A stretch of 64,000 bases of DNA, taken from IMG/VR virus record IMGVR_UViG_3300025617_000013, positions 1-64,000 of that record; one strand, 5' to 3'. The notes beneath the pieces are model-generated. The model did no database searches, was not told where the DNA came from, and worked only from the letters and a program-made list of their open reading frames with translations. The translations under genes were made by a program, and so were the position numbers. Within the stretch, counting starts at the first letter, position 1. Each line of letters begins with the position of its first letter. Source of the DNA: a virus. Positions 34,657 through 56,019 of the stretch are shown here, piece after piece.

Positions 34657-34659
34657 AAA

Positions 34660-34797: not shown

Positions 34798-34798
34798 T

Positions 34799-35383: not shown

Positions 35384-35386
35384 AAT

Positions 35387-35650
35387 ATGAACAAACCATA
35401 TACAGAATTCACATTACAAGATTATGTTATTAGAGAATTTTCCTCTAATACAACCGCTTTTGAGTTTGTTTGGCATAGAGATAAAGAAGATAGAATCGTA
35501 CAAGCAATGCATAACACAGATTGGAAGTTTCAATTAGACAATAAAACACCAAAGGTATTATCAGAAAACAAACTATTTATACCAAAGGAAACCTATCACC
35601 GTTTAATTAAAGGTACAGGTAATCTAAAAGTTAAAATATACAAATTATGA
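35387..35650 (+). CDS. Small cupin-like protein, 87 aa
   Basis: The product begins MNKPYTEFTLQDYVIREFSS. It has the strand sequence FEFVWHRDKEDRIVQAM, WKFQLDNKTPKVL and NKLFIPKETYHRLIKGTGNL. The last segment resembles the second half of a cupin motif (P, then H, then G), and the first has WHRD, so a small beta-barrel is plausible. Metal ligands are incomplete compared with enzymes of the cupin family. It overlaps the next gene by 4 bases. The function is unknown. Confidence 0.65.
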   Translation: MNKPYTEFTLQDYVIREFSSNTTAFEFVWHRDKEDRIVQAMHNTDWKFQLDNKTPKVLSENKLFIPKETYHRLIKGTGNLKVKIYKL

Positions 35651-35952
35651 AGTTAAGTCAAATCATATTAGAATCTAAACCTGATTTTAAAGTTAAAGGT
35701 ATTAACCTTGGGTATACCGACCGTGGTCGTTTCTATAGTGCTAAACTTTACCCTATAGCACAAACTGTTAACTTACCTTTAGGAACAAGAAGACATAAAC
35801 TTCCTTATCAAGAAGCTGAAAAATATATCAAGGATTTAACAGGAATGGATCTACCAGATAGATACTTACCTGATGTATTAGACGGTATTGTGTCTGCATT
35901 AAAGAAGAAAGGTATTTATGCTGATCATGATGATGCAATGGATGTAAGTTAA
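35647..35952 (+). CDS. Small protein with head-targeting-like N-terminus, 101 aa
   Basis: The N-terminus MKLSQIILE-SKPDFKV matches the repeated M-K-L-x-x-I-I-L-E peptide of this phage. A gp21-type cut after Glu9 would leave a 92-residue protein (SKPDFKVKGINLGYTDRGRF...). The mature part mixes strands and helices (KYIKDLTGMDLPDRYLPDVL), with an acidic end. It lies directly before the kinase-like gene. No enzymatic motif is visible. Confidence 0.65.
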   Translation: MKLSQIILESKPDFKVKGINLGYTDRGRFYSAKLYPIAQTVNLPLGTRRHKLPYQEAEKYIKDLTGMDLPDRYLPDVLDGIVSALKKKGIYADHDDAMDVS

Positions 35953-35957
35953 AATGT

Positions 35958-36386
35958 ATGAGACTGTCACATGTCATATTAGGAGAGATACTTTACTACG
36001 ATCCTGGTTTTGAAAGGGAAGTAGATAAAATAAAAGACCAAGGAGGTAAATACTTAGGCTCTGGAGACTATGGATCAGCCTACCTACTCAATGGTAGAGT
36101 CTATAAAGTTACTACAGACGAAATCGAATTAGAACACGCACAAATTCTTAAAGGTAAAAAGACAAATAACTTTGCTGCAATATATGATGTAGAGGTTATT
36201 AATCCTAAATTAGGAATTATACAAATGGAGGTTTTAGGAGAATACAAAGGAGAAATACCAGAAGAATGGGTTGAAGCTGTTAATAGAGAAGCAGAACAAC
36301 ACGGTATAGATCCTGACGAACTAGACATTAGACCTTCTAACATTATGGTGAATCAAAAAAATCACCTTAAATTAGTTGACATTTAG
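35958..36386 (+). CDS. Minimal protein-kinase-like protein with head-targeting-like N-terminus
   Basis: A 142-residue protein holding the key residues of protein kinases in order. There is a Gly loop at 34-42 (GSGDYGSAY), K50 (VYK), E57 or E59, a catalytic-loop-like D123-I-R-P-S-N128, and D141 at the very end. The spacing D-to-N 5 and N-to-D 13 equals that of classical kinases. It stops one residue after D141, so the activation loop and C-lobe helices are missing. The start MRLSHVILGE resembles a capsid-targeting peptide. It could be a degenerate kinase, a compact active enzyme or a nucleotide-binding decoy. It overlaps the primase promoter at its 3' end. Confidence 0.7.
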   Translation: MRLSHVILGEILYYDPGFEREVDKIKDQGGKYLGSGDYGSAYLLNGRVYKVTTDEIELEHAQILKGKKTNNFAAIYDVEVINPKLGIIQMEVLGEYKGEIPEEWVEAVNREAEQHGIDPDELDIRPSNIMVNQKNHLKLVDI

Positions 36387-36406
36387 GAATATTTTTCTTA
36401 TATTAA
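36376..36406 (+). promoter_or_regulatory. Host-type promoter, TTG-N20-TATATTAA
   Basis: TTG at 36376-36378 lies inside the last codons of the kinase-like gene. It is followed by 20 bases and TATATTAA at 36399-36406, preceded by TTTCT. It also reads as TTGACA-N17-TATATT. It drives the primase operon. Confidence 0.75.
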
Positions 36407-36432
36407 ACTAATAACTAGTTACAGAACATAGT

Positions 36433-37356
36433 ATGGATTATACATTCCTACTCGGCTCTATTGAGAATATATTAGGGAAGTCTCATAAAAGAGCTAGAGC
36501 AAACCACGCCTTTCATTGCCCTTTCTGCAATCACAGAAAGCCAAAGTTAGAGATCAACATGGAGACTAATGAAAAAGGTCATAATCCATGGGAATGCTGG
36601 GTTTGCCAGACTAGAGGACGAACAATCAGATCTTTACTAAAGCAGTTAAAAACTCCTAGAGAACAAGCAGCCGAAGTCCTCAAATACCTTCCTAAAGGTT
36701 CGCAAATAGAGTATAAACAGCTATCTATAGTAGAACTACCAAAGGAATACCAAGAATTATATTCTGCTTCACCAACATCAGTTATAGCTAATATAGTAAA
36801 ACAATACCTATATGAACGAGGACTTACCGACAATGATTTTATTAAATACAGTGTTGGATACTGCACAACTGGAGAATATGGAGGAAGAGTCATTATCCCA
36901 AGTTATACTTCATCCGGTACGCTCAACTTTTTTATTGCAAGAACTTTTGACGGAAGCTATTATAAGTACAAGAATCCAGAAGCTTCCAAAGACATAATAT
37001 TTTTTGAGAATCTAATTAACTGGAATGCACCTATTATACTATGTGAAGGAGTATTTGACGCTATAGCAATACGTCGAAATGCTATACCGATTTTAGGTAA
37101 AAGCATATCTAACGAACTTTATAAAAAGATTATAACAAGCAAAGTAAGAGATATCTACATTGCTTTAGATAATGATGCTAAAGATAGAGCATTACAAATA
37201 GCAGAACAATTTTTAAATAACGGTAAAAGAGTTTTTATAGTTGAGATGGAGGATAAAGATCCTTCCGAAATGGGTTTTCGAACTTTTACCAAATATATAC
37301 AATCAGCAGAAGAATTAGATTTATCTCGTCTAATGATGCATAAACTAGATCTATGA
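36433..37356 (+). CDS. DNA primase, zinc-finger plus TOPRIM
   Basis: A 307-residue DnaG/gp61-type primase. The zinc ribbon is C29-x2-C32 (HCPFCNHRKPK) and C55-x2-C58 (WECWVCQTRG). The catalytic TOPRIM fold shows E205 (LCEGVFDAIAI) and D246-x-D248 (IALDNDAKDRA). It would make RNA primers for lagging-strand replication with a helicase encoded elsewhere. It is shorter than host DnaG (about 600 residues), as usual for phages. It is co-transcribed with the following nuclease through an ATGA overlap. Confidence 0.9.
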   Translation: MDYTFLLGSIENILGKSHKRARANHAFHCPFCNHRKPKLEINMETNEKGHNPWECWVCQTRGRTIRSLLKQLKTPREQAAEVLKYLPKGSQIEYKQLSIVELPKEYQELYSASPTSVIANIVKQYLYERGLTDNDFIKYSVGYCTTGEYGGRVIIPSYTSSGTLNFFIARTFDGSYYKYKNPEASKDIIFFENLINWNAPIILCEGVFDAIAIRRNAIPILGKSISNELYKKIITSKVRDIYIALDNDAKDRALQIAEQFLNNGKRVFIVEMEDKDPSEMGFRTFTKYIQSAEELDLSRLMMHKLDL

Positions 37357-38135
37357 TCAAACAAGGAATGAATATTCTCGAACAAAACGAGAAGAAAAGA
37401 TTAGACTTTCAACCACAGTTGAAACAAATTAATTTTTTAGACAGAAGAGTTTACAAAAGATCGGAAGGAGTATACTATCCCTCTGTAACTACCATACTCC
37501 AATATATGCCCAAGAATAAGTTTTTTGAGTCTTGGCTCAAAGACGTTGGGCATAATGCCGATCTTATTATGAGAAGAGCAGGTAAACAAGGTACTCAAGT
37601 ACATGAAGCTTGTGAAAAACTAATCTTAGGAGAAGAGGTTTCTTGGATGGACGATTATGGTAATGCTAAATATTCCCAAATAGTATGGGAAATGATTTTA
37701 AAGTTCCATGATTTCTGGACCACACATAAACCAGAACTTATTTCTGCCGAAGAATTTGTATGGTCAGATGAACATAAGTATGCAGGTACAGCTGATATTG
37801 TATGTAAAATGAACGGTGAGATTTGGTTATTAGATATTAAGACCTCCAACTCTATCCATAAATCTTATGATTTACAGTTAGCTTCTTATGCTAAGGCATT
37901 AGGAGAATCTAAAGGAGTTAATATTGAAAGAACTGGTATTATCTGGTTGAAAGCTCAATCTAGAGGTCCATCTAAACAGAAGAACGTTATTCAAGGTAAA
38001 GGATGGAAACTATTACAGATAGATGAAATCGATAAAAACTTTGAACTGTTTCAAATGATTTATAAGCTATACAGTTTAGAGAACCCTAATACAGAACCTA
38101 TTTATAATAGTTATCCAACTACTCTAAAACTATAA
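37353..38135 (+). CDS. PD-(D/E)XK exonuclease, RecB/Cas4-like
   Basis: A 260-residue nuclease. Visible motifs are H84 (GTQVHEACEKL), E133-E134 (SAEEFVW), D148 (YAGTADIVCKM), D161-I-K163 (WLLDIKTSNS) and the Q175-L-A-S-Y helix. Together these are the RecB-family PD-(D/E)XK active site and its helper helix. Substrates in the family are DNA ends or single strands. Its place behind the primase suggests replication or recombination, possibly processing replication intermediates. The first residues (MIKQGMNILEQ) loosely resemble the head-targeting peptide. Confidence 0.88.
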   Translation: MIKQGMNILEQNEKKRLDFQPQLKQINFLDRRVYKRSEGVYYPSVTTILQYMPKNKFFESWLKDVGHNADLIMRRAGKQGTQVHEACEKLILGEEVSWMDDYGNAKYSQIVWEMILKFHDFWTTHKPELISAEEFVWSDEHKYAGTADIVCKMNGEIWLLDIKTSNSIHKSYDLQLASYAKALGESKGVNIERTGIIWLKAQSRGPSKQKNVIQGKGWKLLQIDEIDKNFELFQMIYKLYSLENPNTEPIYNSYPTTLKL

Positions 38136-38187
38136 GAGCAAAGGTTAAGATTATAGAGTATAGGGAAAATTAAAATTATAAACAGAT

Positions 38188-39129
38188 ATGATAAAACTAT
38201 CAGACATAATCTTAGAACAAAACAGTAGGCCAAAAGCTGTAATTATGGCAGGAGGAGCAGGTTCAGGTAAGACCTACCTACTCAACCAGTTAGGACTAGA
38301 CAGTCTACTCAATCTCAACCCAGACAAGTACATAGAGGATCCCAACCATCCTTACTATAATAAACTAGGTCCAGCAGCCAGCCAAGTAGCCAAAGACGCA
38401 GCAGCAGCAGCAGAAGAAGGTACTAGCTTTGTATGGGATACCACTGCATCTGGTGCTAGATTTGAAAAGCAGCTAGATGACCTGCTTGCAAAAGGATACG
38501 ATGTATATATGGTAATGGTGTATGCACACCCAATGATATCTTATGTTTCTAATTTTATGGCTAGAGACAGAAATATACCTGCAGATGCTGTATTCTCTAC
38601 TTGGAGAAATATCTACCAGAAAATAGAAGATTATAATAGAAAACTTAAAGGTAACTTATCTATTTTTGTTTCTGATAGAGGAGGTAAATATAAGAAAGAA
38701 ATAGAAGGATTCGATACTGCAGCCAAAAGTGGTTTAAGTGGAGTAAAAGACTACTTAGAAAAATTTAACGAAAAAAACAGTATTGGAGGTTCGTCTTTCT
38801 TTAAACCAGTAGAAATGTCTACTGAAGAAGAAGAGGAGTTTAAAAAAGAAGTAGGAAGTATAGACTGGAATAAAGATAATAGATCTGAAGATAAAGCTAT
38901 AAAAACAGCATTCTTAAAAGCTTACCGAAAAAATGGTGTAGGACCTGGTCAAGATAAACTTAGAGATGCAGTTAAAAAGTATAGAGTAAGTAGTGAAAAA
39001 AGAAAGCAATCTGCTGATGAAGTATTAGATAATATTATCGATATGATATATAATCCTACTTTTCAAGAAAAACTTAAACACTCTACCCCTAAGGAAATAG
39101 ATCAAAAAGTACAAACATTCTTAGCATGA
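38188..39129 (+). CDS. Zeta-toxin-like P-loop kinase with head-targeting-like N-terminus
   Basis: The start MIKLSDIILE-QNSRP is the clearest copy of the capsid-targeting-like peptide. A P-loop follows at 22-29 (GGAGSGKT), then LNPDKYIEDPNHPYY, AAAAAEEGTSFVWDTTASGA and a KGYDVYMVMVYAHP strand, the order seen in zeta-toxin and polynucleotide-kinase-like enzymes. Zeta toxins phosphorylate UDP-N-acetylglucosamine, while related enzymes act on nucleic-acid ends. The substrate here cannot be told. The C-terminal third is charged and helical and may be a separate domain. It overlaps the next gene by ATGA. Confidence 0.75.
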   Translation: MIKLSDIILEQNSRPKAVIMAGGAGSGKTYLLNQLGLDSLLNLNPDKYIEDPNHPYYNKLGPAASQVAKDAAAAAEEGTSFVWDTTASGARFEKQLDDLLAKGYDVYMVMVYAHPMISYVSNFMARDRNIPADAVFSTWRNIYQKIEDYNRKLKGNLSIFVSDRGGKYKKEIEGFDTAAKSGLSGVKDYLEKFNEKNSIGGSSFFKPVEMSTEEEEEFKKEVGSIDWNKDNRSEDKAIKTAFLKAYRKNGVGPGQDKLRDAVKKYRVSSEKRKQSADEVLDNIIDMIYNPTFQEKLKHSTPKEIDQKVQTFLA

Positions 39130-40181
39130 TAGCATTATACCCAGGAGCTTACAAACCACCTCATAGAGGACATTTCAACGTAGTAAAATCTTTACTTGAC
39201 GGTTCATATAATGGTGCTGTATATAATAAAGATAATTATAAAGAAACCGGAGCTGAACTTCTTAAAGGTAAAAGAGAGAATAAACCTAAGATAAATAAAG
39301 TTATTATATTTGTAGGAGGCGGTGAGAGAAACGGTATAACTAAGGAAGAGTCGATGTCTATATGGAACATTTACGCTAAGTATTTAGGTAATGTTGAAAT
39401 TGTAGATGGACAGAAAAATCCAATGTTTGCTGCTAAGGATCACGCACAAGCAAATCCGAAAGAAGAATTTGTAGCGGTAACAGGGATTAGAGGTGAAAAA
39501 GATTTTGTAGATTTAAAAAGAGTTACCACTTTTAAGAATGCACCTAACGTTCAAGGATTAGCTTTAACAGCAGCACCGGGATCCGGAGTAAGAGCAACAG
39601 ATTTTAGGAATAATATACTCTCAGGTAATTTAGATAAAATTACCGACTTCTTTCCTGAAGAATTATCTAGAGAAGAAATACTTAATATATTAACAGATTT
39701 GAAAGACAAGATAGTAGCTGAAATTTTAGCTTCTAATATTGAAGGATTTGTAGAAGGTTATTTTAAAGAAACTGAAAGTATTGAAGAAGTTATACAAGAA
39801 CAACAGTCCGGCCCTCAATTAAAAGACTATATTACTTCTTTAACAGAGTATATGTTAGAATTAGGGATGAATATTACTCCACTACCGGAAGTTAAATTAA
39901 GAAGAGATGAAGCCAATGCTGCTAACTTTTTCGGTAGAACAGCATACTATGACCCTAATGCAAGAGAAGTAGTACTTTATATAACAGGTAGACACGATAA
40001 GGATATAGTAAGATCATATGCTCATGAAATGATTCATCATATGCAAAACCTTCAAGGTACCTTACACAATATACAAACTCAGGATACTAACGAAGATGAT
40101 AAGCTTTTAGAATTAGAAAAAGAAGCATATACGTTAGGTAATATTACTTTCCGTAACTGGGAAGATGGTTTAAAAAACTGA
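39126..40181 (+). CDS. Nucleotidyltransferase-zinc metallopeptidase fusion
   Basis: Residues 1-190 are a cytidylyltransferase-like fold: YPGAYKPPHRGHFNVV with H13-x-x-H16, GGGERNGITKEESMSIW, and a late GSGVRATDFRNNIL segment. In the superfamily these residues bind NTP and form an activated product. Residues 230-351 end in a zincin motif H300-E301-x2-H304 (SYAHEMIHHMQN) and E333 as a probable third ligand (LEKEAYTLG). The two domains are joined around residue 224 by IEEVIQEQQSGP, which contains a possible prohead-protease site. Such a pairing is unusual. Substrates are unknown. Confidence 0.75.
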   Translation: MIALYPGAYKPPHRGHFNVVKSLLDGSYNGAVYNKDNYKETGAELLKGKRENKPKINKVIIFVGGGERNGITKEESMSIWNIYAKYLGNVEIVDGQKNPMFAAKDHAQANPKEEFVAVTGIRGEKDFVDLKRVTTFKNAPNVQGLALTAAPGSGVRATDFRNNILSGNLDKITDFFPEELSREEILNILTDLKDKIVAEILASNIEGFVEGYFKETESIEEVIQEQQSGPQLKDYITSLTEYMLELGMNITPLPEVKLRRDEANAANFFGRTAYYDPNAREVVLYITGRHDKDIVRSYAHEMIHHMQNLQGTLHNIQTQDTNEDDKLLELEKEAYTLGNITFRNWEDGLKN

Positions 40182-40189
40182 TAAAAAAG

Positions 40190-40220
40190 TTGGAAAATTG
40201 CATAAAAGTTCGTATATTAA
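40190..40220 (+). promoter_or_regulatory. Host-type promoter, TTG-N20-TATATTAA
   Basis: TTG at 40190-40192, 20 bases, TATATTAA at 40213-40220, preceded by GTTCG. Its leader ends in AAAGGTTTT before the ATG at 40251. Confidence 0.75.
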
Positions 40221-40250
40221 GTATGTTAATTAACGCTAAATAAAGGTTTT

Positions 40251-40841
40251 ATGAATACAAGTATTGTAGATTTATTAGAAGCTTATCCGCTTCCTGAACA
40301 AAAAGAAACTCCTCCATATAAGATTTACTGTGATATGGACGGTGTATTAACTGATTTCGAAAAAAGATTTCATGAAAAACTTAATGAAGTAGGTCCTGAT
40401 TATTATCCATTAAAAGATATTAAAAAGGTAGTTAAACCTAAAGACTTTGAAGCTATATTTGGTATTGAAGAATTTTGGAACTTTATAGACGGTATAGTAG
40501 GAATTGGTTTTTGGGTAGGTATGGATTGGATGCCTCAAGGAAAAGCACTATGGAACTTCATCTCTCCTTACAAACCAGAACTACTTACTTCTCCTTCAAG
40601 AGATAATGCTTCTAGATTAGGTAAAAATTTATGGGCTAAAAACCAACTAAGCCCTAAACCAAGAGTAATTTTCGCCTACTCTAAAGATAAACAGAGATAT
40701 GCTAATGCTAATAGTATATTAATAGACGACAAAAAATCAAATATTGAACAGTGGATAGCAAAAGGAGGAATCGCTTTTAGAGTTAAAGACGGTGACATCG
40801 GTCCTGTTATTCAAGGACTAAAAGAACTAGGTTATGAATGA
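40251..40841 (+). CDS. HAD-superfamily phosphatase, 5'-nucleotidase-like
   Basis: A 196-residue HAD enzyme: motif I D28-M-D30 (YCDMDGVLTDF), motif II T113 (LLTSPSRDNA), motif IV D159-D160 (SILIDDKKSNIEQW). It resembles phage and bacterial 5'(3')-deoxyribonucleotidases and may balance nucleotide pools. The first ten residues (MNTSIVDLLE-AYPLPEQ) end in an L-L-E site like the head-targeting peptides. It has its own host-type promoter and the AAAGGTT leader, so it is probably expressed early or throughout. It overlaps the next gene by 8 bases. Confidence 0.8.
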   Translation: MNTSIVDLLEAYPLPEQKETPPYKIYCDMDGVLTDFEKRFHEKLNEVGPDYYPLKDIKKVVKPKDFEAIFGIEEFWNFIDGIVGIGFWVGMDWMPQGKALWNFISPYKPELLTSPSRDNASRLGKNLWAKNQLSPKPRVIFAYSKDKQRYANANSILIDDKKSNIEQWIAKGGIAFRVKDGDIGPVIQGLKELGYE

Positions 40842-41409
40842 AAGCGCTCTTAAAAAAGAGTTTAACAGATCAGATGTAGAGAGGATAAGAAACTTAGTTA
40901 ATAAGGATTTTACGTCTGGTACTAAATCTCAATCTGGATATAAGAAAACTTCTAAAAGATATAAAGAAGGTGATGTTTGGGAAGAAGGTGGAAAACAATG
41001 GACCATTAAGAACGGCCTTAGACAGAACATTACTAAATTAGATGCAGCTAAAAAAGCAGCACAAGTACCATTAAAATGCCCTAAATGTAGCGGCTCAATG
41101 TCTTACCATCTCAGTAAAAAGATTTATAAGATAAACAAGATGTGTTTTAATTGTTTTATAGATTATGAAGCTGAATTAAGAAGAAATGGTCTTTACGAGG
41201 ATTACTTAATACACGCTAGAAAAGGTAACCTTAAATACTTTATTAAGGAACTAGAAGAAAAGTTTGCAGAAGCTTTAGAATACGACGATACTTTCGTAAC
41301 TGAACAAGGTGATATAGAGTCATGGAATACAAATAAAAGTATTAATCGAAATCAGATGACCGAAAAGTTTAAAGAATATATAAGTTACCTGAGAAGTAAG
41401 CTTGATTAG
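40834..41409 (+). CDS. Zinc-ribbon protein, 191 aa, unknown
   Basis: A central zinc-ribbon is visible: C-x2-C (LKCPKCSGSM, about residues 87-90) and C-x2-C (MCFNCFIDYE, about 107-110). The N-terminal part is basic with EGDVWEEGGKQWTIKNGLRQ, a beta hairpin that I associate with small conserved proteins of T4-like phages. The C-terminal third is helical (EDYLIHARKGNLKYFIKELE). Zinc-ribbon proteins often bind DNA or a packaging partner. It overlaps the HAD gene by 8 bases. Confidence 0.72.
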   Translation: MNESALKKEFNRSDVERIRNLVNKDFTSGTKSQSGYKKTSKRYKEGDVWEEGGKQWTIKNGLRQNITKLDAAKKAAQVPLKCPKCSGSMSYHLSKKIYKINKMCFNCFIDYEAELRRNGLYEDYLIHARKGNLKYFIKELEEKFAEALEYDDTFVTEQGDIESWNTNKSINRNQMTEKFKEYISYLRSKLD

Positions 41410-41412
41410 TAT

Positions 41413-41427
41413 ATATTTATATTTATA
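41413..41427 (+). promoter_or_regulatory. Two overlapping late motifs (ATATTTATA/TATTTATA)
   Basis: ATATTTATA at 41413-41421 and TATTTATA at 41420-41427, 25 bases before the ATG at 41453. Confidence 0.5.
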
Positions 41428-41452
41428 TACTACTTTATATTTTTAAAGCCTT

Positions 41453-41812
41453 ATGACACAAAAAGAACTGCTAGAATCAGTATTATCTGAGCTTGTACAT
41501 ATTAAGAAGCATATGCCAAACGGCGAGCTTAAAGCAATGCTTATAGATGTAAAAGACCTAAAAGAAGATATGTCTGACCTTAAATTTACACTACTTAACC
41601 CAGAAAATGGTGTGATAGTTAAGACAAATCAAAATACTGAATTCAGAAAATTCATGCAAGGAAACGAGAAAGAGTTTCAAGCCAAAATGATAGAGTTAGC
41701 AGAATTCAAAAGATGGAAAGAAGGAGTAAATAAAGCCCTTTGGATATTATTTACAGTACTTGCAGGTGTTGTAATTAAACTTTTATCTGAAGTCCTTAAA
41801 TCAGGAGCATAA
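41453..41812 (+). CDS. Coiled-coil protein with C-terminal membrane helix, 119 aa
   Basis: Residues 1-90 are helical and charged (ELLESVLSELVHIKKHMPNG, MSDLKFTLLNPENGVIVKTN). Residues 95-113 are a membrane helix (LWILFTVLAGVVIKLLSEV). This layout resembles XhlA-type holin helpers, which anchor by a C-terminal helix, but there is no lysin gene nearby. The N-terminus (MTQKELLESVLSE) also has an L-L-E site. It shares a TAATG overlap with the next gene. A lysis or membrane-docking role is a guess. Confidence 0.65.
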   Translation: MTQKELLESVLSELVHIKKHMPNGELKAMLIDVKDLKEDMSDLKFTLLNPENGVIVKTNQNTEFRKFMQGNEKEFQAKMIELAEFKRWKEGVNKALWILFTVLAGVVIKLLSEVLKSGA

Positions 41813-42366
41813 TGTCAAACACTAAAAAGAAGATACCTGCAGATATACAAGCTTTTATGAGGGAACTCATACAGGAATCTTTACGTGATTGGTTTAAAAA
41901 AGAAAAGTGGGTTAGAATATCGTCATCTGGTAATATAGCAGGTCCTTGCGGAACATCTAAAAATAAGAAGAATCCAGATAGATGCTTACCCAAAGCAAAG
42001 GCACAGAGTTTAACTAAAGGCCAAAGAGCCGCTACTGCAGCTAAGAAAAAGAAAGCAGGAGCTAAAGGTAAACAGGTAGTACCGAATACAAAAAAAGGAA
42101 AAGTAACAAAAGCATATGTTAGAGAAATGATACATCAAGTTATCATGGAAAAAGATGATAGATGTACTCGCATTGCTAAACGTAAATACGATACCTGGCC
42201 ATCAGCTTATGCTTCAGGAGCAGTAGTTAGATGTAGAAGAGGTGAAATCTGGAAAGGAGTAAAAGAAGAAACTCTTGATGAAATGAATTGCAAGTACGGT
42301 AAGTATTACTGCACAACCGATAAAAAATATAAGTGTAGAAAAGGACCTAAAAAGTCCAAAAATTAA
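41812..42366 (+). CDS. Basic Cys-containing protein, 184 aa
   Basis: A very basic protein of two parts. The first begins FMRELIQESLRDWFKKEKW, with a possible cut after IQE, and includes RISSSGNIAGPCGTSKNKKN and a Lys/Ala-rich stretch. The second starts with KAYVREMIHQVIMEKDDRCT and contains DTWPSAYASGAVVRC and CKYGKYYCTTDKKYKCRKG, with several Cys that may bind zinc. The composition suggests DNA binding inside the head. I recall the GPCGTSK and WPSAYASG motifs from marine phage proteins of unknown function. Confidence 0.72.
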   Translation: MSNTKKKIPADIQAFMRELIQESLRDWFKKEKWVRISSSGNIAGPCGTSKNKKNPDRCLPKAKAQSLTKGQRAATAAKKKKAGAKGKQVVPNTKKGKVTKAYVREMIHQVIMEKDDRCTRIAKRKYDTWPSAYASGAVVRCRRGEIWKGVKEETLDEMNCKYGKYYCTTDKKYKCRKGPKKSKN

Positions 42367-42374
42367 ATAAAGAA

Positions 42375-42572
42375 ATGCCCGTAAAACTAAAACCCAGCAT
42401 TAAGCAGTACTTAAAAGATAAAAATGGTAAACAGACTAGTACCTGGGTGTGGGTACATTATACGGTGAAAAATACACCTACAGTTGAGTTGAAAAAGTAT
42501 TATGAAAATCCATCTTTTTCAAGAAAAAAACAAGTAATTAAAAGAGAATTAGAAAGAAGAAATGCCATTTAA
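42375..42572 (+). CDS. Small basic protein, 65 aa
   Basis: A 65-residue Lys-rich protein (MPVKLKPSIKQYLKDKNGKQ ... STWVWVHYTVKNTPTVELKK) with a beta hairpin core and a helical end. It overlaps the next gene by 11 bases. Basic size and neighbours suggest a nucleic-acid-binding internal protein. I recognise no family. Confidence 0.65.
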   Translation: MPVKLKPSIKQYLKDKNGKQTSTWVWVHYTVKNTPTVELKKYYENPSFSRKKQVIKRELERRNAI

Positions 42573-42768
42573 AAAGTCACAATTAAGAGAGTTAGTATTA
42601 GAAGTTATGTACGAAGGAGTACATGACCCTGTTAAACCTGGCATTCTTAAAAAAAGACTCGGCAAACTTTCTTGCTCAAAAGTAAGATCAGCTAAATCTG
42701 GTCTCAAGAATAAAGGAACGCATTATGCTAAAGCGTTACAACGTTATTTAAATTATCATTGTCAATGA
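42562..42768 (+). CDS. Small basic protein with head-targeting-like N-terminus, 68 aa
   Basis: The product opens MPFKKSQLRELVLEVMYEG, with a V-L-E site at residues 12-14. It continues as a basic helical domain (LKKRLGKLSCSKVRSAKSGL, THYAKALQRYLNYHCQ). I recall the latter part from marine T4-like phages as a conserved protein of unknown function. If cut after the VLE site, a 54-residue basic protein would remain in the head, similar in size to T4 internal proteins. It overlaps the following gene by ATGA. Confidence 0.7.
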   Translation: MPFKKSQLRELVLEVMYEGVHDPVKPGILKKRLGKLSCSKVRSAKSGLKNKGTHYAKALQRYLNYHCQ

Positions 42769-43394
42769 AATTAACCAACAATAAGTTACACAGAAATGCA
42801 TATTTTTTAGATCCCACAGAAGAGATAGAGACTCTAAAAAATCCAAAGAGTGTAGACTTATTTGATCAAAACGGTTACCATTTGACAAAAGCAGAACAAG
42901 CTTTCTTAACTTACAACGGATATACCCCTATTGAAAGAAGACATGAAGATTGTCTAAGATACGATTGGCTAACTTGGGATAAGAGAGAAGGTGCACATAT
43001 TAATCATTCTGATTTATTCGAAAGAAAAGGATTCTACTCAACAGCTCTAGAACAAATTACAGCCATCGCTGAAGAATTTAATCCTATGTTATGGAAATTA
43101 GTTAAAATGAAACCTAAATGGGGAATAGATATTTCTATAGATTACACTTCTAAGGATGCTGTATTTGAAGTATTTCACTACGAATGGGATTCTTTTGACT
43201 TCTGTAAAGTTATGGAAAAAAAACAAGAGATCGAACAATTTGTTTTAAATCAAGATTGGGATGATGTAGCAAAAAAACTATGGAAGAAAAGAAATCAATG
43301 GTATGATTTAAATTTCTTTGAACAAACACAATGGAGAACAGATTATTTTGGATTATCCCCTGAAAAGTTTAAAAACGTTATTTGGGAAGATTAA
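42765..43394 (+). CDS. Acidic/aromatic protein, 209 aa, unknown
   Basis: The start is set at the ATG at 42765, which overlaps the preceding stop (ATGA), rather than a TTG two codons earlier. The product is rich in Trp, Phe, Asp and Glu (CLRYDWLTWDKREGAHINHS, VFEVFHYEWDSFDFCKVMEK). It shows no catalytic pattern I recognise, no signal peptide and no membrane segment. It is the last gene before the late promoter at 43396. Confidence 0.68.
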   Translation: MKLTNNKLHRNAYFLDPTEEIETLKNPKSVDLFDQNGYHLTKAEQAFLTYNGYTPIERRHEDCLRYDWLTWDKREGAHINHSDLFERKGFYSTALEQITAIAEEFNPMLWKLVKMKPKWGIDISIDYTSKDAVFEVFHYEWDSFDFCKVMEKKQEIEQFVLNQDWDDVAKKLWKKRNQWYDLNFFEQTQWRTDYFGLSPEKFKNVIWED

Positions 43395-43395
43395 T

Positions 43396-43410
43396 CTATT
43401 TATTTATATA
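43396..43410 (+). promoter_or_regulatory. Late promoter motif CTATTTATTTATATA
   Basis: Two overlapping TATTTAT copies 23 bases before the ATG at 43434, directly after the preceding stop. Confidence 0.65.
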
Positions 43411-43433
43411 GCTATACAATAAAACACACTACG

Positions 43434-46400
43434 ATGACGTACGATGAAATTAAGCAACGGCTAGCACAGGTTGAAAACACATTGCAAACTATCAGCAATA
43501 CAGGAAAACCGGTATTAGTTAATTCATACACCGCTAAATCTTTAGAAAAACTAACTACTCTAAAAGAATCACTACAAAAACAATTAGCAGAAAAAGACGA
43601 GACTATGTTCATTTCTACCAAAGGAGGCGATACTAAAGCCGTTAAAATGGATAGAAAGACTGCCATGGATCTTAAAAAAGATCCTAACATTACAGGAATC
43701 GATACAGCAAAAGGTCAATCCTTAAAAGAAGTAGACAGATTAATTAAAAACTCAGGTGTAGAGTTTGATAAAAAGGAAGTAGCAATTGTTGCTAAATCTA
43801 CCGGTAAAGCATTAGCCATTGCATTAAAGAAAGCAGGTGATGAAATCGCTAGAATGAAAGCTATAAGATTGGATGTTAATAGTTTTGATGTAGAGGTAAC
43901 GTATAAAGGTGAAAACAGAGGCTATGATGAGTTTTCTTTTTATATTACCGATAACGAGTTACATCTAGTAGATTTTTCATTCGACAAAACACTAGTCCAA
44001 GTAGGTGTTAAGCCTTCAGGAGAACCAATCGTAAACGTGGATGTACTAGCAAATGAACTCTTAAAACACTTCAAATCTTTAAATGAGCAAGTAAACGAAG
44101 TAAACTACGATTATTACACTACCCCAAAACATTTTGATATCTGCCCAGGAGCTGAAACATTAAGAGATGAAGTTTTAGCAAGCGGTAAATCACCTGAAGA
44201 ATTAGGAGAATGGACCTTTAAACATGACGAATTATTTAGATTAGAAAAAGCAGTCTTAAAAGCAAATAAAGCTGACGAAAGACATGTTAAAGTAGCTAAA
44301 CAATTAGCAGGAGAAATTACTCACCTTTCTAGAGATTTAGGAATTGAAGCCAATAAAATAGGGTACTTAAAAGGGCACGTTAAGAAAATCGAAGATGTAG
44401 CTAACAAGACTGATGGACGTGGTGATAATATGTCATTAAGAAGCAGAGACATTTATGAAGGTGAAGGAGATGACCATCATTACATTAAAGTAAAATCACA
44501 TGATTATAAGAAGGCTATGGCTATCTTAGATCAAAACATAGATCCAACTTACGTAAAAACAGAAGTAGTTGACGACGACGGAGCAGGTAACGTAATTATT
44601 TACTTTATATTCAGACATGAATACGGATTCGACGATATGTACGATGATCCAGAAGGTAAAGAAAACCCAGAATTTTATCAAGAACCAGACGAAGATCCAA
44701 ATGCGTTTGTGTATGATGTAGTAATGGATTTACGAGCAAACGATATTGAACTAGCAGATCATTCAGCTGAAATGGATGAAGATTACGATCCAGATCAAGA
44801 GCAGAAACACGACGAAGAAGATCATGGAGTAGCATACGATGACGACGGAAGACCTCTAGGAGAGGATTTAGACGTTGGACATCAAGATGATGAGCCTAGT
44901 ATGTTAAAATCTTCTGCTTTCGAAACAGCTACCTATGCTGCTAAATTAGCAAAGAAATTAGCTCAATATGATCAAGTAGACGGAGAAGTAGATTTTCCTA
45001 ACTGGTGGCAAAAGAAATTAATATTAGCTAGAGACTATATGTCTGCAGCATATCACTACTTAGAATCAGAAGAAAAACAACCTCTTATTGATAAGTTAGC
45101 TTTAGAATCTGTTAGTGAAGTTTCTTTAAATAAGATACAAAAATCTTACGACCAGACAATTAGTATAATGAAAGATCTTGCTAAAAAATATAAGGCAGGA
45201 GACAAATCAGTAGTTGATCAATTAAAAACTTTAACTATAACAAAGAAAAAGTTAGAAAAGCAATTAGATGATAAAATATCTGGCTCAGGAAGGGATCAAG
45301 AATTAACTATTAATGAATCAGCATCTAGAGATTTAGATGAAATATTTGGAGCATTAGGATATAGACAGGGGTTTGATGAATTTATTGAAGATAACCCAGG
45401 ATGTGTAGAAGTAATAATGGAATGGATCGGAGGAATATCTGATTTTCAAGAAAAATTATCTCAAGAATACGATAATGAAGAGTTAGAAAATTTAGGATTT
45501 TACTTTGGCGATGATGATTATAACGAAGTAATTAGAGAGTCACTAAACCCAGAAGTATCCCAAGCAGTAAATCGTTTTATTAAAGCAATGGCTAAACGAT
45601 ATAGCTACAGCGAACAAGATGCTGTATTTGCTATCATGGCTGCTTTAAAACAAAGAAAATTTGATGGTTTAAATGAAGCTAATAATTTACTTAAACAAGA
45701 CGCATTATCACCTGCAGAATATCAAAAAGCTAAAAAATTAAAGGGATTTGATTCTAAAAATTATAAATGGGATAAAGATCAAGAACTTCATTTAATTAGA
45801 AAAATGAGTGAAGATTTAGATGTAGGTAAAAAACCTCTGAAAGAATTTACTGATAATAGTTTCAAAGGTTCAGAACTAATCGACGATGCTAATAGTAACG
45901 CACCTGATATGTTTGGTAAACAAATATTTGCAGATCTATTACCTAAAGGAGTAGCTAGTGAAAACGATGCAATTGAAGCTTTAAAGAAACATGATAAGAG
46001 TGGTATCAAAGCTAGAATGGGACAGTATGCTCCTATGTTTGTTCACGTTCAATACCATGAATTAGAGCATGAAGGTGAATACTATAGAATGCATCAAAGA
46101 CAATACTATAACAGTAACTTTAAAGATAGAGACCCAGACTTTAATCCTGCAGTATCTAAAATTACATTATTTAAGATTACTAAGAAAGCAGCAGATAGAC
46201 GTGATAAAGAAGAAAAAGAAGTGTTAGGAACTATACTAGTTAAAACAGATCAGTACGTACAAGATCTAAGAAACTTACCTGGATTAGGTAAGAGACATAT
46301 GGAAGAAGCTACTAGACAAGATTTAGGAATGGTATCATCTATATCTAAACGTAGAGCTAAAGCACACTTAAAGAACCCATCTAATGATGGATCTAAAGTA

Positions 46401-46784
46401 TACGGTTTAGATAAGGACGGCAAAAGAGTTCATATTAAAAATATCAACGACGTAGATAAATTTACAAAATTCGAAATTGATGCTGATTTAAAAGAAGCTA
46501 AAGGAGGTCAAATAATGCCTGGAGATTATGTTAAAAATCAACACGGTAATATTTACCAAAGAGTAGATGGAAAAGTCGGTAGACATGATGCTTATGTTAG
46601 AGTTACTAACGGCAAACCAGGTAAAAAGAAAACTGGCTTACATGACTCTTTTAAATTAACTTTAGTTAAGAAAGACGAATTAACTGAAGGAGCAACATGC
46701 TGCGGTAAATGCGGTAGAGTACATGTTAAAGGAAACTGTAAAAGACCTTTTTTAAAAGGAAAGTCTCACTGTAGAAATAAATAA
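43434..46784 (+). CDS. Large modular internal-protein candidate A, 1116 aa
   Basis: A 1116-residue acidic multidomain protein without membrane segments. About residues 145-260 form a mixed domain (VEVTYKGENRGYDEFSFYIT). The segment DLDVGHQDDEPSMLK and YDQVDGEVDFPNWWQKKL (about residues 478-540) has a close copy in the next protein. A further part has KGGQIMPGDYVKNQHGNIYQ, an SH3-like strand set. The end is a Cys/His-rich tail (CCGKCGRVHVKGNCKRP, then C) that probably binds zinc and is also repeated in the next protein. Many L-x-E sites occur. It may be packed in the head and cut, but this is inference. Confidence 0.65.
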   Translation: MTYDEIKQRLAQVENTLQTISNTGKPVLVNSYTAKSLEKLTTLKESLQKQLAEKDETMFISTKGGDTKAVKMDRKTAMDLKKDPNITGIDTAKGQSLKEVDRLIKNSGVEFDKKEVAIVAKSTGKALAIALKKAGDEIARMKAIRLDVNSFDVEVTYKGENRGYDEFSFYITDNELHLVDFSFDKTLVQVGVKPSGEPIVNVDVLANELLKHFKSLNEQVNEVNYDYYTTPKHFDICPGAETLRDEVLASGKSPEELGEWTFKHDELFRLEKAVLKANKADERHVKVAKQLAGEITHLSRDLGIEANKIGYLKGHVKKIEDVANKTDGRGDNMSLRSRDIYEGEGDDHHYIKVKSHDYKKAMAILDQNIDPTYVKTEVVDDDGAGNVIIYFIFRHEYGFDDMYDDPEGKENPEFYQEPDEDPNAFVYDVVMDLRANDIELADHSAEMDEDYDPDQEQKHDEEDHGVAYDDDGRPLGEDLDVGHQDDEPSMLKSSAFETATYAAKLAKKLAQYDQVDGEVDFPNWWQKKLILARDYMSAAYHYLESEEKQPLIDKLALESVSEVSLNKIQKSYDQTISIMKDLAKKYKAGDKSVVDQLKTLTITKKKLEKQLDDKISGSGRDQELTINESASRDLDEIFGALGYRQGFDEFIEDNPGCVEVIMEWIGGISDFQEKLSQEYDNEELENLGFYFGDDDYNEVIRESLNPEVSQAVNRFIKAMAKRYSYSEQDAVFAIMAALKQRKFDGLNEANNLLKQDALSPAEYQKAKKLKGFDSKNYKWDKDQELHLIRKMSEDLDVGKKPLKEFTDNSFKGSELIDDANSNAPDMFGKQIFADLLPKGVASENDAIEALKKHDKSGIKARMGQYAPMFVHVQYHELEHEGEYYRMHQRQYYNSNFKDRDPDFNPAVSKITLFKITKKAADRRDKEEKEVLGTILVKTDQYVQDLRNLPGLGKRHMEEATRQDLGMVSSISKRRAKAHLKNPSNDGSKVYGLDKDGKRVHIKNINDVDKFTKFEIDADLKEAKGGQIMPGDYVKNQHGNIYQRVDGKVGRHDAYVRVTNGKPGKKKTGLHDSFKLTLVKKDELTEGATCCGKCGRVHVKGNCKRPFLKGKSHCRNK
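44862..45080 (+). repeat. Module shared with the next gene (DLDVGHQDDEP module)
   Basis: Coding module of about 70 residues (EDLDVGHQDDEP ... VDFPNWWQKKL ... YHYLESEE) whose near-copy lies at about 48556-48770 in the neighbouring gene. Confidence 0.7.
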
Positions 46785-46787
46785 GAT

Positions 46788-49496
46788 ATGCATAAGTTAG
46801 AAAAACTCATATTAGAGTCTTACGTCGAACTACTTAACGAAATGGATGGTGGTCGATTATTTGATTATTTTGCTAATAAAGGATACAAAGTAACAGAACG
46901 TAGACCAGATGGTTATCCACCAAAACCAGGAGTAGAAGGATATCAGGTAAATAGGGGCAGTGGTAGATATCCTCAATCAGTAATATTTCAACATAATAAG
47001 GATACTGATGAATTTACAATCAGTAGAATGAGTGGATATAGAATTGATCAAAAAAATGCTATAAAAGCAGGAATGAGAGAAGCAGGCAGTTCAGGAGCAG
47101 CCGGTATGGATTCTTATATGACAGATGGTAACTACACACCAGTAGGTATTTCAGCTGAAGGCTTAAAAGATATAGTAGACCATGTTATGACTGGTTTAGA
47201 TCGAGAAGCTAAAGCACAAGGTGACTTTTATAAAGCTAGAGGACGTACATCAGGTACTATAGATGAAATGGCTAAAGCTGATATGGAAAAAAAAGCCGGC
47301 AGTAATGTTATCCAGTGGGAAGATCTTACAGATAAACAAAGAGCCGGGATCGTTAAAAGGTACGGTGAACCAATGTTTAACGGAGAGCATGATTTCTTTA
47401 GTAAAGACATGACTACCTACTTTAAGACTAATAGTAAAAGTAAAGAAACAGGTAGTATAGGTCATTCAATCATTACATTACCTTCATTCTCCTCCCTATA
47501 TAAGAACTTCTCAGACATTATTAACGATATTAAAAAGTTAATGGGTTCTGATGATGTAAGGGGAGATGAAGCAGCTAGAGAGCTTTTTGATATCACTAAA
47601 ACTAACTTTAGAAAACTACAAAGATACCTAAGAACAGAAAGACCTGAGCAATATAGAATGCTTAAAATGCAGAGAATGATGGAGGGTATCAAATCGTCTT
47701 TTTCTAAGATAGAAGAGAAGATGGATATTAATGATCCAGTTATGCTAAAAGTAAGACGAGCTAAAATGCATTCAGATAGAATGAAAAAATTAGATGCTTA
47801 TTTAAAATCTCCTGAAGGTAAAGCTGCTGCACGAGCACAAGCTAGTGCTGAAAGAAAAGAACAAAAAGCTAGAGAGATAGTTCGTAAATTAAAGATCAAG
47901 AGAGCCCAAGTAGAAAGAGAGATGGAGAACGATCCAGACATCGAACCTCAAGGAGGCCCAGTATCTGATATGTACGGAGACCAATTAAATAAAATTGACA
48001 ATGCTATTGAAAAAGCAGCATCTGTATACAATAAACCTATGGACTACGATACAGCAGTCGGTAAAATAAATGAATTTGTAGGTGATGCTTGGGAAAAAAG
48101 AAATGGAATTCTTTATGACAAACTTGTTAAAGGTTCTGGAAAATCAGATACTGTAGAAGGAGAAATTTTGAGAGCAGTAAATAGAATTATATATAGATGG
48201 GGTAATGATGGAGATTACTTTTGGAAAGGGTACGGAACAGAAACAGTAGGTCCTGCTATATCATACTTAGTTAATAGCTCAATGATACCACAAATAATCC
48301 AAAGTAAATTTAATGCTTGGGAAAGTAATAATGAAGGTAAAAATTACGGTATAAAAGAATTAGAAGATCTTCTTGCAATAGCTTTAGAGTATATAGAAAG
48401 GAAAGACGAAAGTGAATATTCTAAGAATACAGAAGATATGTTTGATTACGAATCTGAGTATCAAGATGAAGAAGAAGATGATTACGATGATTATGATGAT
48501 TACGATGAAGAAGATGATGAATATTTTCAAGAAGGTTCTGCAACACATGATGATGGTGGAGATTTAGATGTAGGACATCAAGATGATGAGCCTGCAATGC
48601 TAAAAAATAAAATGTATAGAGCAGCCAAACTTGCAAACATGCTATATGACAAGTTAGATGCTTATGACCAAATGCCTCAAGAAGTAGACTTTCCAGATTG
48701 GTGGCAAACAAAGCTATCAAAAGCCAAAGATATGATTCAATCCTGCTATGATTACTTAGATGGAGAAGAAGGAATGGCTGAAAAAGATGCTGAGAATACA
48801 CAACCAGATATCGCAGCACTAGCTTTAGAGAATGTAAATGAAGACAAATCAGACGCTATTAGATGGTTCGGTAACTTAAAGTATTATTACCAAAAAGCCT
48901 TTACAGAACTTAAAGGTGAAGACAGAGAAACTTATAAGCAATTAACTAAAGACTTCTTTTCTAAACTAAAAATTGATAAACACGTACGCCCAGTAGGGTT
49001 ATCTGAAAGTGAAGGACAAGACTTATCAGAATTAAAACCTGGAGATAAGTTTGAATTCAACGGAAAAACATTTACCTTAATACAACATATAGAAGGAAAT
49101 ATCGCTAAAGTAATACGACCAAACGGAGATACTTCAACAGTTTCTTTTGGAGGTAAAGTAAACACTGGAAAGAAAGCCGGTATTGGACCTGATGCTTTCG
49201 GACAAGGAAAAGGCCATCACATAGATGAAGATCATTCTAAAAACCCAAACGACAAATATGTTGTACGTCCATGTAAGAATAAGAAAGAGCCTTGGGCGGT
49301 ATGGGAAGGTGAAAAGAGAGTTAAAGGATTTGCTGAAAAGAAAGATGCTCAGGCATATGCAGACAAGCAAAATAAGGAACAGGGGCTAAACGAAGAAAAA
49401 TCAACTTGTTGCGGTAAATGTGGTAGAAAACACGTTAAAGGAACAAAATGTAAAACTCCTTACTTAAAAGGAAAAGATCACTGTAGAACTAAATAG
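46788..49496 (+). CDS. Large modular internal-protein candidate B, 902 aa
   Basis: The start MHKLEKLILE-SYVELLNE is a good copy of the head-targeting-like peptide. About residues 215-295 form a module (KETGSIGHSIITLPSFSS ... AARELFDITKTNFRKLQRYL) that recurs in the next gene. About 590-660 hold the DLDVGHQDDEP module shared with the previous gene. Residues around 750-790 are SH3-like (LKPGDKFEFNGKTFTL). Near 825-865 is a KYVVRPCKNKKEPWAVWEGE segment resembling the DUF2188 type. The end is a Cys/His zinc tail (CCGKCGRKHVKGTKCKT). A plausible injected polyprotein, but the role is unproven. Confidence 0.68.
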   Translation: MHKLEKLILESYVELLNEMDGGRLFDYFANKGYKVTERRPDGYPPKPGVEGYQVNRGSGRYPQSVIFQHNKDTDEFTISRMSGYRIDQKNAIKAGMREAGSSGAAGMDSYMTDGNYTPVGISAEGLKDIVDHVMTGLDREAKAQGDFYKARGRTSGTIDEMAKADMEKKAGSNVIQWEDLTDKQRAGIVKRYGEPMFNGEHDFFSKDMTTYFKTNSKSKETGSIGHSIITLPSFSSLYKNFSDIINDIKKLMGSDDVRGDEAARELFDITKTNFRKLQRYLRTERPEQYRMLKMQRMMEGIKSSFSKIEEKMDINDPVMLKVRRAKMHSDRMKKLDAYLKSPEGKAAARAQASAERKEQKAREIVRKLKIKRAQVEREMENDPDIEPQGGPVSDMYGDQLNKIDNAIEKAASVYNKPMDYDTAVGKINEFVGDAWEKRNGILYDKLVKGSGKSDTVEGEILRAVNRIIYRWGNDGDYFWKGYGTETVGPAISYLVNSSMIPQIIQSKFNAWESNNEGKNYGIKELEDLLAIALEYIERKDESEYSKNTEDMFDYESEYQDEEEDDYDDYDDYDEEDDEYFQEGSATHDDGGDLDVGHQDDEPAMLKNKMYRAAKLANMLYDKLDAYDQMPQEVDFPDWWQTKLSKAKDMIQSCYDYLDGEEGMAEKDAENTQPDIAALALENVNEDKSDAIRWFGNLKYYYQKAFTELKGEDRETYKQLTKDFFSKLKIDKHVRPVGLSESEGQDLSELKPGDKFEFNGKTFTLIQHIEGNIAKVIRPNGDTSTVSFGGKVNTGKKAGIGPDAFGQGKGHHIDEDHSKNPNDKYVVRPCKNKKEPWAVWEGEKRVKGFAEKKDAQAYADKQNKEQGLNEEKSTCCGKCGRKHVKGTKCKTPYLKGKDHCRTK

Positions 49497-49497
49497 T

Positions 49498-50550
49498 ATG
49501 GATAAAATACAAAAACTTATTTTAGAAGCATATAGTAAGGTATCTGAAAGAACTGAAGGTACTAAAAAACTCAAAGAACTACCAGATGCCTTTGTAAAAG
49601 CTCTAAGTAAAAAGTACGGAGAAGTAGATATGGAAAATGATTTCGTATCTCCCAACCTAGATACATACTATAAACATACAAGTACTAATAAAAAAACCGG
49701 TAGTATCGATCATAAGATTTATGAACTACCTTCTTTTTATAAACTGTACGGTGAATTTGAATCTATTATAAGTGATATAAAAACTTTAATGGGAAACGAA
49801 GATGTACGAAACGATCAAGCAGCCCGTGAATTATTTGAACTTATCAAAACTAACTTTAGAAAACTTCAAAGCTACTTAAGAAAGGAAAGACCAGATCAAT
49901 ATGCTATCATAAGAGGTAGAGCAGAATTAAAAGAACTACATGAATCTTTTTTAAAAACCGCTTCACTTATTAACGAGTCTTTAATTGATGAGTTAGAAGA
50001 TAAACCAGAACCTGAAGAGGAACCTGATACTGATGCTCCAAAAGAAACTGTTCTTGAAGATGCTACAGATAAAATTTTAGGTAAATTTCCAACTTTAAAA
50101 GCTGCTATAACTAAACTTCAAACAGAAGACTTTAAAGAGTTTGTAGACAGTATAGATTGGATTTCACCCCGACCTACTTCTTTTCGTATTAATTTAAAAA
50201 ACGGACAAGATTACGTTTTAAAATGGACAGGTAAATCATTTCAAGCTCAAATTTTAGGTAAAAGGTATTTACTTTCTAATATAGCAGACTATCAACAAGC
50301 TCTTGATAAATTAGCCATACTCTATAAAGAAGCACCTTTAAAAGGAGCAGGAGAAGGAGAAGGCGGAGAAACAGGAGATGAATTTACCGGAGGTGGAGGA
50401 GGAGATTTTCCTGGCGAAGAAGGTGGAGCAACAGGAGGTGAAGATGACTTTGCAGCAGACGATACCGGAGGCGGTGATGAAGGTGGCGGAGAAGATTTAT
50501 CCGGTGAACCAATAGATTTTGAAGACACAGCAGAAGAACCAGAAGCATAG
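49498..50550 (+). CDS. Modular internal-protein candidate C, 350 aa
   Basis: The start MDKIQKLILE-AYSKVSE carries the head-targeting-like peptide. Residues 60-140 are the KTGSIDHKIYELPSFYKL module, matching the previous protein (LMGNEDVRNDQAARELFELI). The middle domain contains WISPRPTSFRINLKNGQDYV. The last 70 residues are a low-complexity Gly/Glu/Asp tail (EGEGGETGDEFTGGGGGDFP). It starts one base after the preceding stop and ends just before the next gene. Confidence 0.68.
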   Translation: MDKIQKLILEAYSKVSERTEGTKKLKELPDAFVKALSKKYGEVDMENDFVSPNLDTYYKHTSTNKKTGSIDHKIYELPSFYKLYGEFESIISDIKTLMGNEDVRNDQAARELFELIKTNFRKLQSYLRKERPDQYAIIRGRAELKELHESFLKTASLINESLIDELEDKPEPEEEPDTDAPKETVLEDATDKILGKFPTLKAAITKLQTEDFKEFVDSIDWISPRPTSFRINLKNGQDYVLKWTGKSFQAQILGKRYLLSNIADYQQALDKLAILYKEAPLKGAGEGEGGETGDEFTGGGGGDFPGEEGGATGGEDDFAADDTGGGDEGGGEDLSGEPIDFEDTAEEPEA

Positions 50551-55164: not shown

Positions 55165-56019
55165 ATGAAAATTAAGCATTCAAAATTCCGTAATACCGGT
55201 CTGATATTTGAACTACTAGTTAAGCAAGTAGCTTCAGATACTCTGAATAATAGAGATTCAGCAGCTGTAAGTATTATTAAAAAGTACTACGCTGGGAAGA
55301 CTAGTTTAGCGAAAGAATATAAACTTTACGAATTTATAACTAAAAATAAAAACGTATCTCAATCTAAAGCTGAAGCTATAGTTTCTACTATAACAGAGAT
55401 TTCTAGAAAACTTGATCAAAAACTTCTCAAAAAACAGAAGTATGAACTTATATCTGAAATTAAAGCTAATTACAATATAGATGAGTTTTTCAGTATACAG
55501 GTAAGGGATTACAAAGGTTTAGCTGCATTATACTGTTTACTAGAAGCACAAAATAATTCTAATTTAGTTAATCCGCAAACTTTAGTAGATAATAAGACTA
55601 CTATATTAGAGCATTTAACTGAAGAACCTCAAAAGGAAAAGAACGTTAAGGATACATTAATAGAAGATTATTCTAAATACGATAAAGACCTTAGGTTACT
55701 TACTTTTAAAATATTACTAGAGAAGTTTAACGATAACTATAAAGACTTACTCCCACAACAGAAAAGAATACTTAAAGAGTTTATAACCTCAGTTAATTCA
55801 GATACAAGATTACGTAATACTGTTAACGAAGAGTTAAGTATAATTCTTTCTGAAATTAAGTCACTAATAGGAAAAGTAGAGGATAAAGTAATAAAGATTA
55901 AATTAGACGAAATAACTAAGACTATTAAACCTTTATCTAATAAAGAAAAAGTTACAGATAGCCATTTAGTTAACCTGATGCAATATTACGACTTAATACA
56001 GGAACTAAAGAATATATGA
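55165..56019 (+). CDS. Head-module helical protein, 284 aa
   Basis: An all-helical, Lys-rich protein (FRNTGLIFELLVKQVASDTL, KKYYAGKTSLAKEYKLYEFI). It sits where T4 places the small prohead core genes 67 and 68. I recall similar proteins beside the portal gene in other marine T4-like phages but know no function. No catalytic motif or membrane segment is seen. It overlaps the next gene by ATGA, and all three linker genes to gp21 are coupled. Confidence 0.72.
   Translation: MKIKHSKFRNTGLIFELLVKQVASDTLNNRDSAAVSIIKKYYAGKTSLAKEYKLYEFITKNKNVSQSKAEAIVSTITEISRKLDQKLLKKQKYELISEIKANYNIDEFFSIQVRDYKGLAALYCLLEAQNNSNLVNPQTLVDNKTTILEHLTEEPQKEKNVKDTLIEDYSKYDKDLRLLTFKILLEKFNDNYKDLLPQQKRILKEFITSVNSDTRLRNTVNEELSIILSEIKSLIGKVEDKVIKIKLDEITKTIKPLSNKEKVTDSHLVNLMQYYDLIQELKNI

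Follow-up and report, generated by a model that had tools for sequence, protein, structure and literature searches.

Why a series of otherwise unrelated proteins should begin with one short common peptide is the question raised by a cassette encoding proteins both small and large at approximately 33.8 to 51 kb, upstream of the head cluster, in the stretch of DNA analysed here (the window, which covers bases 1-64000 of a virus record 87,663 bases long). The source is a marine bacterial virus, a Bacteroidota-type phage whose nearest isolate, as judged by the major capsid protein (67% identity), is the T4-type myovirus Flavobacterium phage immuto; the window genes lie on the + strand and mostly lack Shine-Dalgarno sequences. 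An initial annotation had listed eight such start peptides and proposed that they target proteins to the capsid as in phage T4. All eight are present, each starting at ATG, and seven have the (I/L)-x-E ending claimed for them, the exception being that of 42562 (proteins are named here by the first base of their genes), which ends V-L-E. The "dozen" carriers claimed were a generous count: we regard seven as probable in the window (35647, 35958, 38188, 40251, 46788, 49498 and, more loosely, 42562; Table 1), plus 56016 and 64960, the latter a further carrier just beyond the window end. The listed start of 7313 is probably merely helical; this gene sits among tail/baseplate genes and is matched in position and start (MKLDLLKKLIKEAV) by one of the immuto baseplate region. 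Also set aside were 41453, which fits the pattern but resembles a coiled-coil protein with a membrane helix at its C-terminus and is probably a false positive, and the nuclease 37353 (MIKQGMNILE/Q), not counted as a tag carrier because its E is not conserved within its family.

Table 1. Features of the cassette and head cluster, with tagged superoxide dismutases of relatives. Coordinates refer to the window unless preceded by a contig label; a slash marks the predicted cleavage position.
Coordinates	Strand	Feature	Start	Basis
35647..35952	+	101-aa protein, function not known	MKLSQIILE/S	PhixxPhi[IL]xE match
35958..36386	+	142-aa mini protein-kinase-like protein	MRLSHVILGE/I	AF2 model, PDB matches, invariant residues
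38188..39129	+	zeta-toxin-like P-loop kinase	MIKLSDIILE/Q	PF06414 1.8e-13
39126..40181	+	nucleotidyltransferase-like + metallopeptidase-like protein	no N-terminal tag	sequence; phrog_395 weak
40251..40841	+	HAD-type 5'(3')-deoxyribonucleotidase	MNTSIVDLLE/A (looser fit)	phrog_2643 1.4e-19
42562..42768	+	68-aa protein	MPFKKSQLRELVLE/V (looser second flavour)	sequence
43434..46784	+	1116-aa modular protein	no clear N-terminal tag	sequence; same cassette
46788..49496	+	902-aa modular protein	MHKLEKLILE/S	strict pattern; relatives MHKLEKLILEEY/ESY/EAY
49498..50550	+	350-aa modular protein	MDKIQKLILE/A	strict pattern
56016..56255	+	head-cluster protein, 79 aa	MKRSELVNLVKE/V	PhixxPhi[IL]xE match; immuto counterpart MKKSQIVKAVQEVLEE
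58366..58944	+	gp21-type prohead protease (peptidase family S77)		PF03420 1.3e-33; T4 gp21 structure 5JBL (5jbl_A) 1.8e-23
59129..60361	+	candidate gp22-type scaffold	MANKDLLKQAIAE/A	acidic; 14 [IL]xE sites; between gp21 and gp23
60388..61971	+	gp23-type major capsid protein		PF07068 2.9e-82, domain from residue 76
L074:5709-6353, L082:10495, L086:10402, L092:1828, L089/L090:9918		tagged Fe/Mn superoxide dismutase		relatives, absent from window

We consider it highly probable that the peptides are capsid-targeting sequences of the T4 type, here carried by enzymes. Every prediction of this proposal that can be tested in sequence (register, enrichment, conservation outside the protein fold, the add-on nature of the peptide and the co-occurrence of gp21) is borne out, and the support further includes the common peptide itself and its conservation at the protein level. 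In T4, the first 10 residues of IPIII suffice for targeting, with positions 4 and 7 involved in targeting and 8 and 10 in processing, and Asp at position 10 blocks cutting with targeting still possible (PMC9026906, a review); the leader is the sole part common to Ip1-3 (PMC12373910), and in the T4 record IPII and IPIII start MKTYQEFIAE/A. Like T4 IPI, IPII, IPIII and Alt, the carriers described here have one short N-terminal peptide on otherwise unrelated proteins, with hydrophobic residues at 4 and 7, I/L at 8 and E at 10, in a virus with an S77 protease and T4-type head genes. Unlike in T4, the consensus is MIKLSxIILE, accompanied by two further flavours, the carriers are more numerous and several are recognisable enzymes, the phage is of Bacteroidota type, and cutting and packaging are predictions. 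Scanning of the carriers against Pfam and PHROG gave no match to the mature T4 IPI-III or Alt families. The exact T4 register (hydrophobic 4 and 7) occurs in 38188, 46788 and 49498, with 35647 shifted by one; counting against this reading, the start of 35958 is displaced from the register by one residue, those of 40251 and 42562 deviate too, the residue following E varies widely among carriers, and 39126 and 43434 have no N-terminal tag. Our criterion for a T4-type capsid-targeting sequence was an N-terminal propeptide of about 10-19 residues; the length predicted is 9 or 10 residues for all seven main carriers except 42562, for which it is 14, and ranges over 9-16 in relatives. The P3 residue of 42562 is V, and I in a relative, and its relatives MPYNKAHIKELILEV and MKKSELTKIIKEVLE match our strict pattern, PhixxPhi[IL]xE within the first 16 residues, which was fixed beforehand from T4 IPIII genetics.

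Conservation of the zeta-kinase tag follows the positions named by T4 genetics: among 17 homologues of 38188, diverging to 36% identity, M1, I2, L4 and E10 are invariant and residues 7 and 8 always I/L, and residues 11-14, directly after the invariant E10, are variable. Similarly, M1, L3 and E10 are invariant in 13 homologues of 35958, and 92% of the 13 members of the 35647 family in relatives have the pattern. In the AF2 models of 35958 and 38188 residues 1-11 lie outside the fold (pLDDT about 40 over these residues in 38188), though they are among the most conserved. Since the shared residues are encoded by differing codons and the DNA upstream of the starts is unrelated, the likeness is at the protein level, indicating selection on the peptide, and we reject common DNA or gene conversion at these starts as its source. 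As judged by comparison with untagged homologues, the peptide is an add-on to complete enzymes (superoxide dismutase and nucleotidase). Homologues of the 40251 nucleotidase in the jumbo phages Atu_ph07 and Phosso begin directly at the enzyme domain with no extension, and an Fe/Mn superoxide dismutase (SOD; PF02777 3e-36) of relatives has MIKMSDILLE/A, MKLSKLILE/N or MKIKDILFE/Q directly ahead of it, this tag of 9-10 residues being followed from residue 13-14 by a normal SOD, equivalent to residues 2-3 of many PDB SODs. The literature searched contained no report of SOD from phage heads, which is weak evidence given the scope of that search. SOD, acetyltransferase and some other cargo come from relatives, outside the window; the acetyltransferase is part of a tagged protein found at L112:10120-11370 and L078:4950, of which the L112 copy has GNAT acetyltransferase and nucleotidyltransferase domains.

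In the mechanism that we propose, the M-x-x-L-x-x-(I/L)-(I/L)-x-E start would bind the scaffold core of the prohead as it grows, via the hydrophobic face of a short helix (residues 4, 7 and 8), a gp21-type protease would cleave after E10, or after E9 in the shorter form, with loss of the peptide, and the freed enzyme would remain in the head during DNA packaging, entering the next host cell alongside the genome. The window cargo would thereby comprise the mini protein-kinase-like protein, the zeta-like P-loop kinase, the HAD nucleotidase and large modular proteins, which relatives would exchange for others, Fe/Mn SOD among them. For the window phage we infer scaffold binding, cutting, virion presence, injection and a role in the host by analogy; the tag layout is that of T4 head-loading, so that these viruses probably deliver enzymes together with their DNA. 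The literature searched contained no virion proteome for immuto or the window phage, which counts against the proposal, though as weak evidence. The gp21 gene claimed by the initial annotation at 58366 is confirmed (Table 1), its product retaining the GELDHP and SSRG motifs of T4 gp21. The gp23-type protein is likely to be cut at QIVAE/ANST near residue 59, and 56016 is a candidate core protein; the scaffold candidate 59129 is placed by position and composition, and gave no convincing family match in Pfam.

A core- or head-docking tag that stays uncut, with E10 forming part of the binding surface, would produce identical conservation of L4, I/L7, I/L8 and E10, and the effect of Asp10 in T4 implies that targeting and cutting are separable. 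We nevertheless regard such a tag as unlikely, given that E10 is invariant and residues 11-14 are not, that gp21 is encoded in 12 of 12 long contigs of relatives carrying the cassette, and that two-domain fusions (L089/L090:9918 and immuto 114006) keep the full tag with E exactly at the junction. In the former, SOD is fused behind another tagged domain and the junction bears a second tag; the C-terminal domain of 49498 likewise occurs in immuto as a fusion following another protein, in which SKSELKEIMLE/AYIEVLQ lies internally.

Head-loading of the T4 type is also consistent with cassettes of other T4-like phages. Like the window, HTVC008M (a Pelagibacter phage) and Melnitz (a Methylophilales phage) have a HAD nucleotidase and a cytidylyltransferase near helicase and primase genes, and a zeta-like kinase is present in the HTVC008M cassette too; a tblastn search of isolate phages with 38188 returned no match. 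The cassettes of these two phages, with several MKxFxxFxxE (MKxFxxF/ILxE) starts, and that of the T4-like cyanophage S-SM1 have their own tag consensus, closer to that of T4, and their cytidylyltransferase is tagged, whereas 39126 of the window is not. In S-SM1 this enzyme (T4-GC190) was detected in purified virions by mass spectrometry (PMC3037559); it is syntenic with, and 39-44% identical to, the HTVC008M and Melnitz cytidylyltransferases, and its start, MKKFSAFLNE/A, has the exact IPIII register. S-SM1 is linked to the window through the context of the cassette and through the HAD and zeta homologies. Exchangeable non-homologous cargo behind one leader is likewise a feature of the hypervariable ip loci of T-even phages, whose genes are recognised by that leader, although T4 Ip1-3 are small restriction inhibitors and the cargo here includes a kinase, a nucleotidase and, in relatives, SOD. 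The ejection proteins of the giant phages SPN3US and phiKZ are likewise carried in the head, and a prohead protease cuts them after E, but their propeptides are mostly >100 residues and their sites A-x-E or S-x-E (PMC5694885).

An amphipathic helix at a protein start is a general docking device, and could in principle serve docking elsewhere (to the tail, host membrane or host RNA polymerase) or a role in translation, as might be suggested by the late-type promoters missing for some carriers. A late-promoter-like motif, CTATTTATA, is enriched approximately 12-fold in intergenic gaps, and is absent from those before 33392, 34799, 36433, 38188 and 40251; the caveat in the initial annotation that some carriers lie behind host-type rather than late promoters is fair, and the lack of the motif for cassette genes 33392-40251 counts against the tag reading. 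In T4, genes for internal proteins are expressed early too, and absence of the motif up to 40251 would not exclude packaging. Examples of the motif stand before 41453, 43434, 53238, 55165 and 63818. Docking elsewhere appears very improbable on other grounds: the register is that of the T4 tag, the cassette by the terminase and head genes is enriched and tail genes are not, S-SM1 virions contain a related enzyme that starts in this way, and the differing codons imply that the peptide is not a translation element.

The genome-wide motif search suggested with the original proposal reveals enrichment above chance. When the motif is kept loose ([IL]xE with its E at residues 6-20, expectation from internal windows), the 87.7-kb record has 25 positives among its 70 proteins against 12.8 expected, and the excess lies nearly all in 33.8-65.3 kb (11/20 against 3.5 and 8/14 against 3.1), with 6/36 against 6.2 expected outside it. 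The strict pattern is found in 5 of 20 proteins of the window cassette (0.33 expected from internal windows), 2 of 14 in the window head region (0.13 expected) and 9 of 23 in the immuto cassette (0.16 expected), with no excess in the immuto early region (3 of 149 proteins, 4.2 expected). Candidate carriers in immuto include the kinase-like immuto26A_178 (MISIYNILKE/V), the nucleotidase immuto26A_184 (LLLE/E) and proteins with MKKSQLRxIIKE and DLKKFLVENK. For a wider sample, IMG/VR relatives were fetched with three cassette genes and families clustered on the sequence after residue 18. A first count gave 58 positive families of 326 (4.1 expected), a figure inflated because families were split; linking everything with any similarity yields the conservative one, 18 of 210 unrelated superfamilies with the strict pattern against 3.3 expected (maximum 11 in 20,000 simulations). 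Chance occurrence of N-terminal helices with abundant L, I, K and E probably accounts for 7313 and 41453, and loose [IL]xE is common, but as the source of the peptide set as a whole chance has a negligible probability and is rejected by internal windows, shuffles and unrelated-family counts, with strict-pattern excesses of approximately 15-fold (window) and 56-fold (immuto) in the cassettes, and by conservation across the deep divergence of the zeta kinases.

Capsid targeting is thus known in kind from T4; what is new is the tag consensus and its parallel flavours, the group of hosts, how many proteins carry the tag and the fact that enzymes are among them. We lean, though only somewhat, towards the wider view that T4-like marine phages (of Bacteroidota, SAR11, OM43 and cyanobacteria) share a modular head-loading system with lineage-specific, scaffold-matched tags that move from gene to gene, and that their virions inject an exchangeable enzyme kit (kinases, nucleotidase, cytidylyltransferase, SOD and others) at time zero. 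If so, the first 10 residues would mark injected effectors among marine-phage genes of unknown function, turning the large set of hypothetical proteins of these abundant phages into a testable list, and phages would be delivering enzymes, among them a minimal kinase and one with antioxidant function, ahead of any phage gene expression.

As regards individual cargo, the AF2 model of 35958 (pLDDT 89) has kinases as all its best PDB matches (Foldseek, E down to 4.5e-6, TMq 0.45-0.60), and K50, E57, D123, N128 and D141 are invariant, with kinase spacing, in the 13 homologues noted above, pointing to a predicted protein-kinase fold with the core catalytic residues. The chain stops right after the DFG-like Asp, and the remainder of the C-lobe is absent. 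By its Walker A motif (GGAGSGKT) and match to the Zeta_toxin profile, 38188 is a zeta-type P-loop kinase. The match of 39126 to the phrog_395 cytidyltransferase is weak (E 0.012), and a cleavage site, IQE/Q, is possible between its two parts. The large modular proteins 46788 and 49498 contain no known domains. We considered 43434 and 46788 as polyproteins with many internal gp21 sites, and rejected this, the (I/L)xE counts being within approximately 1.2 s.d. of shuffles; internal (I/L)xE is thus not clearly enriched, and it is the L089/L090 and immuto fusions that back internal sites. A domain (DLDVGHQDDEPxMLK...VDFPxWWQ) and a C-terminal Cys-rich module (CCGKCGRxHVKG, usually after L-N-E or L-T-E) are common to 43434-46784, 46788-49496 and immuto 114006-116531. 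The C-terminal domain of 33868-34656 shares 64% identity with the C-terminus of the cytidylyltransferase protein from Melnitz, indicating domain shuffling between cassettes. Finally, the RMQxLAGI motif at the C-terminus of the scaffold candidate (59129-60361) also occurs close to the N-terminus in two proteins of immuto (MW353175, at 25061 and 111675; MKKQILSEQF[KR]RMQxLAGIITES), for which it is perhaps another route to joining the scaffold.
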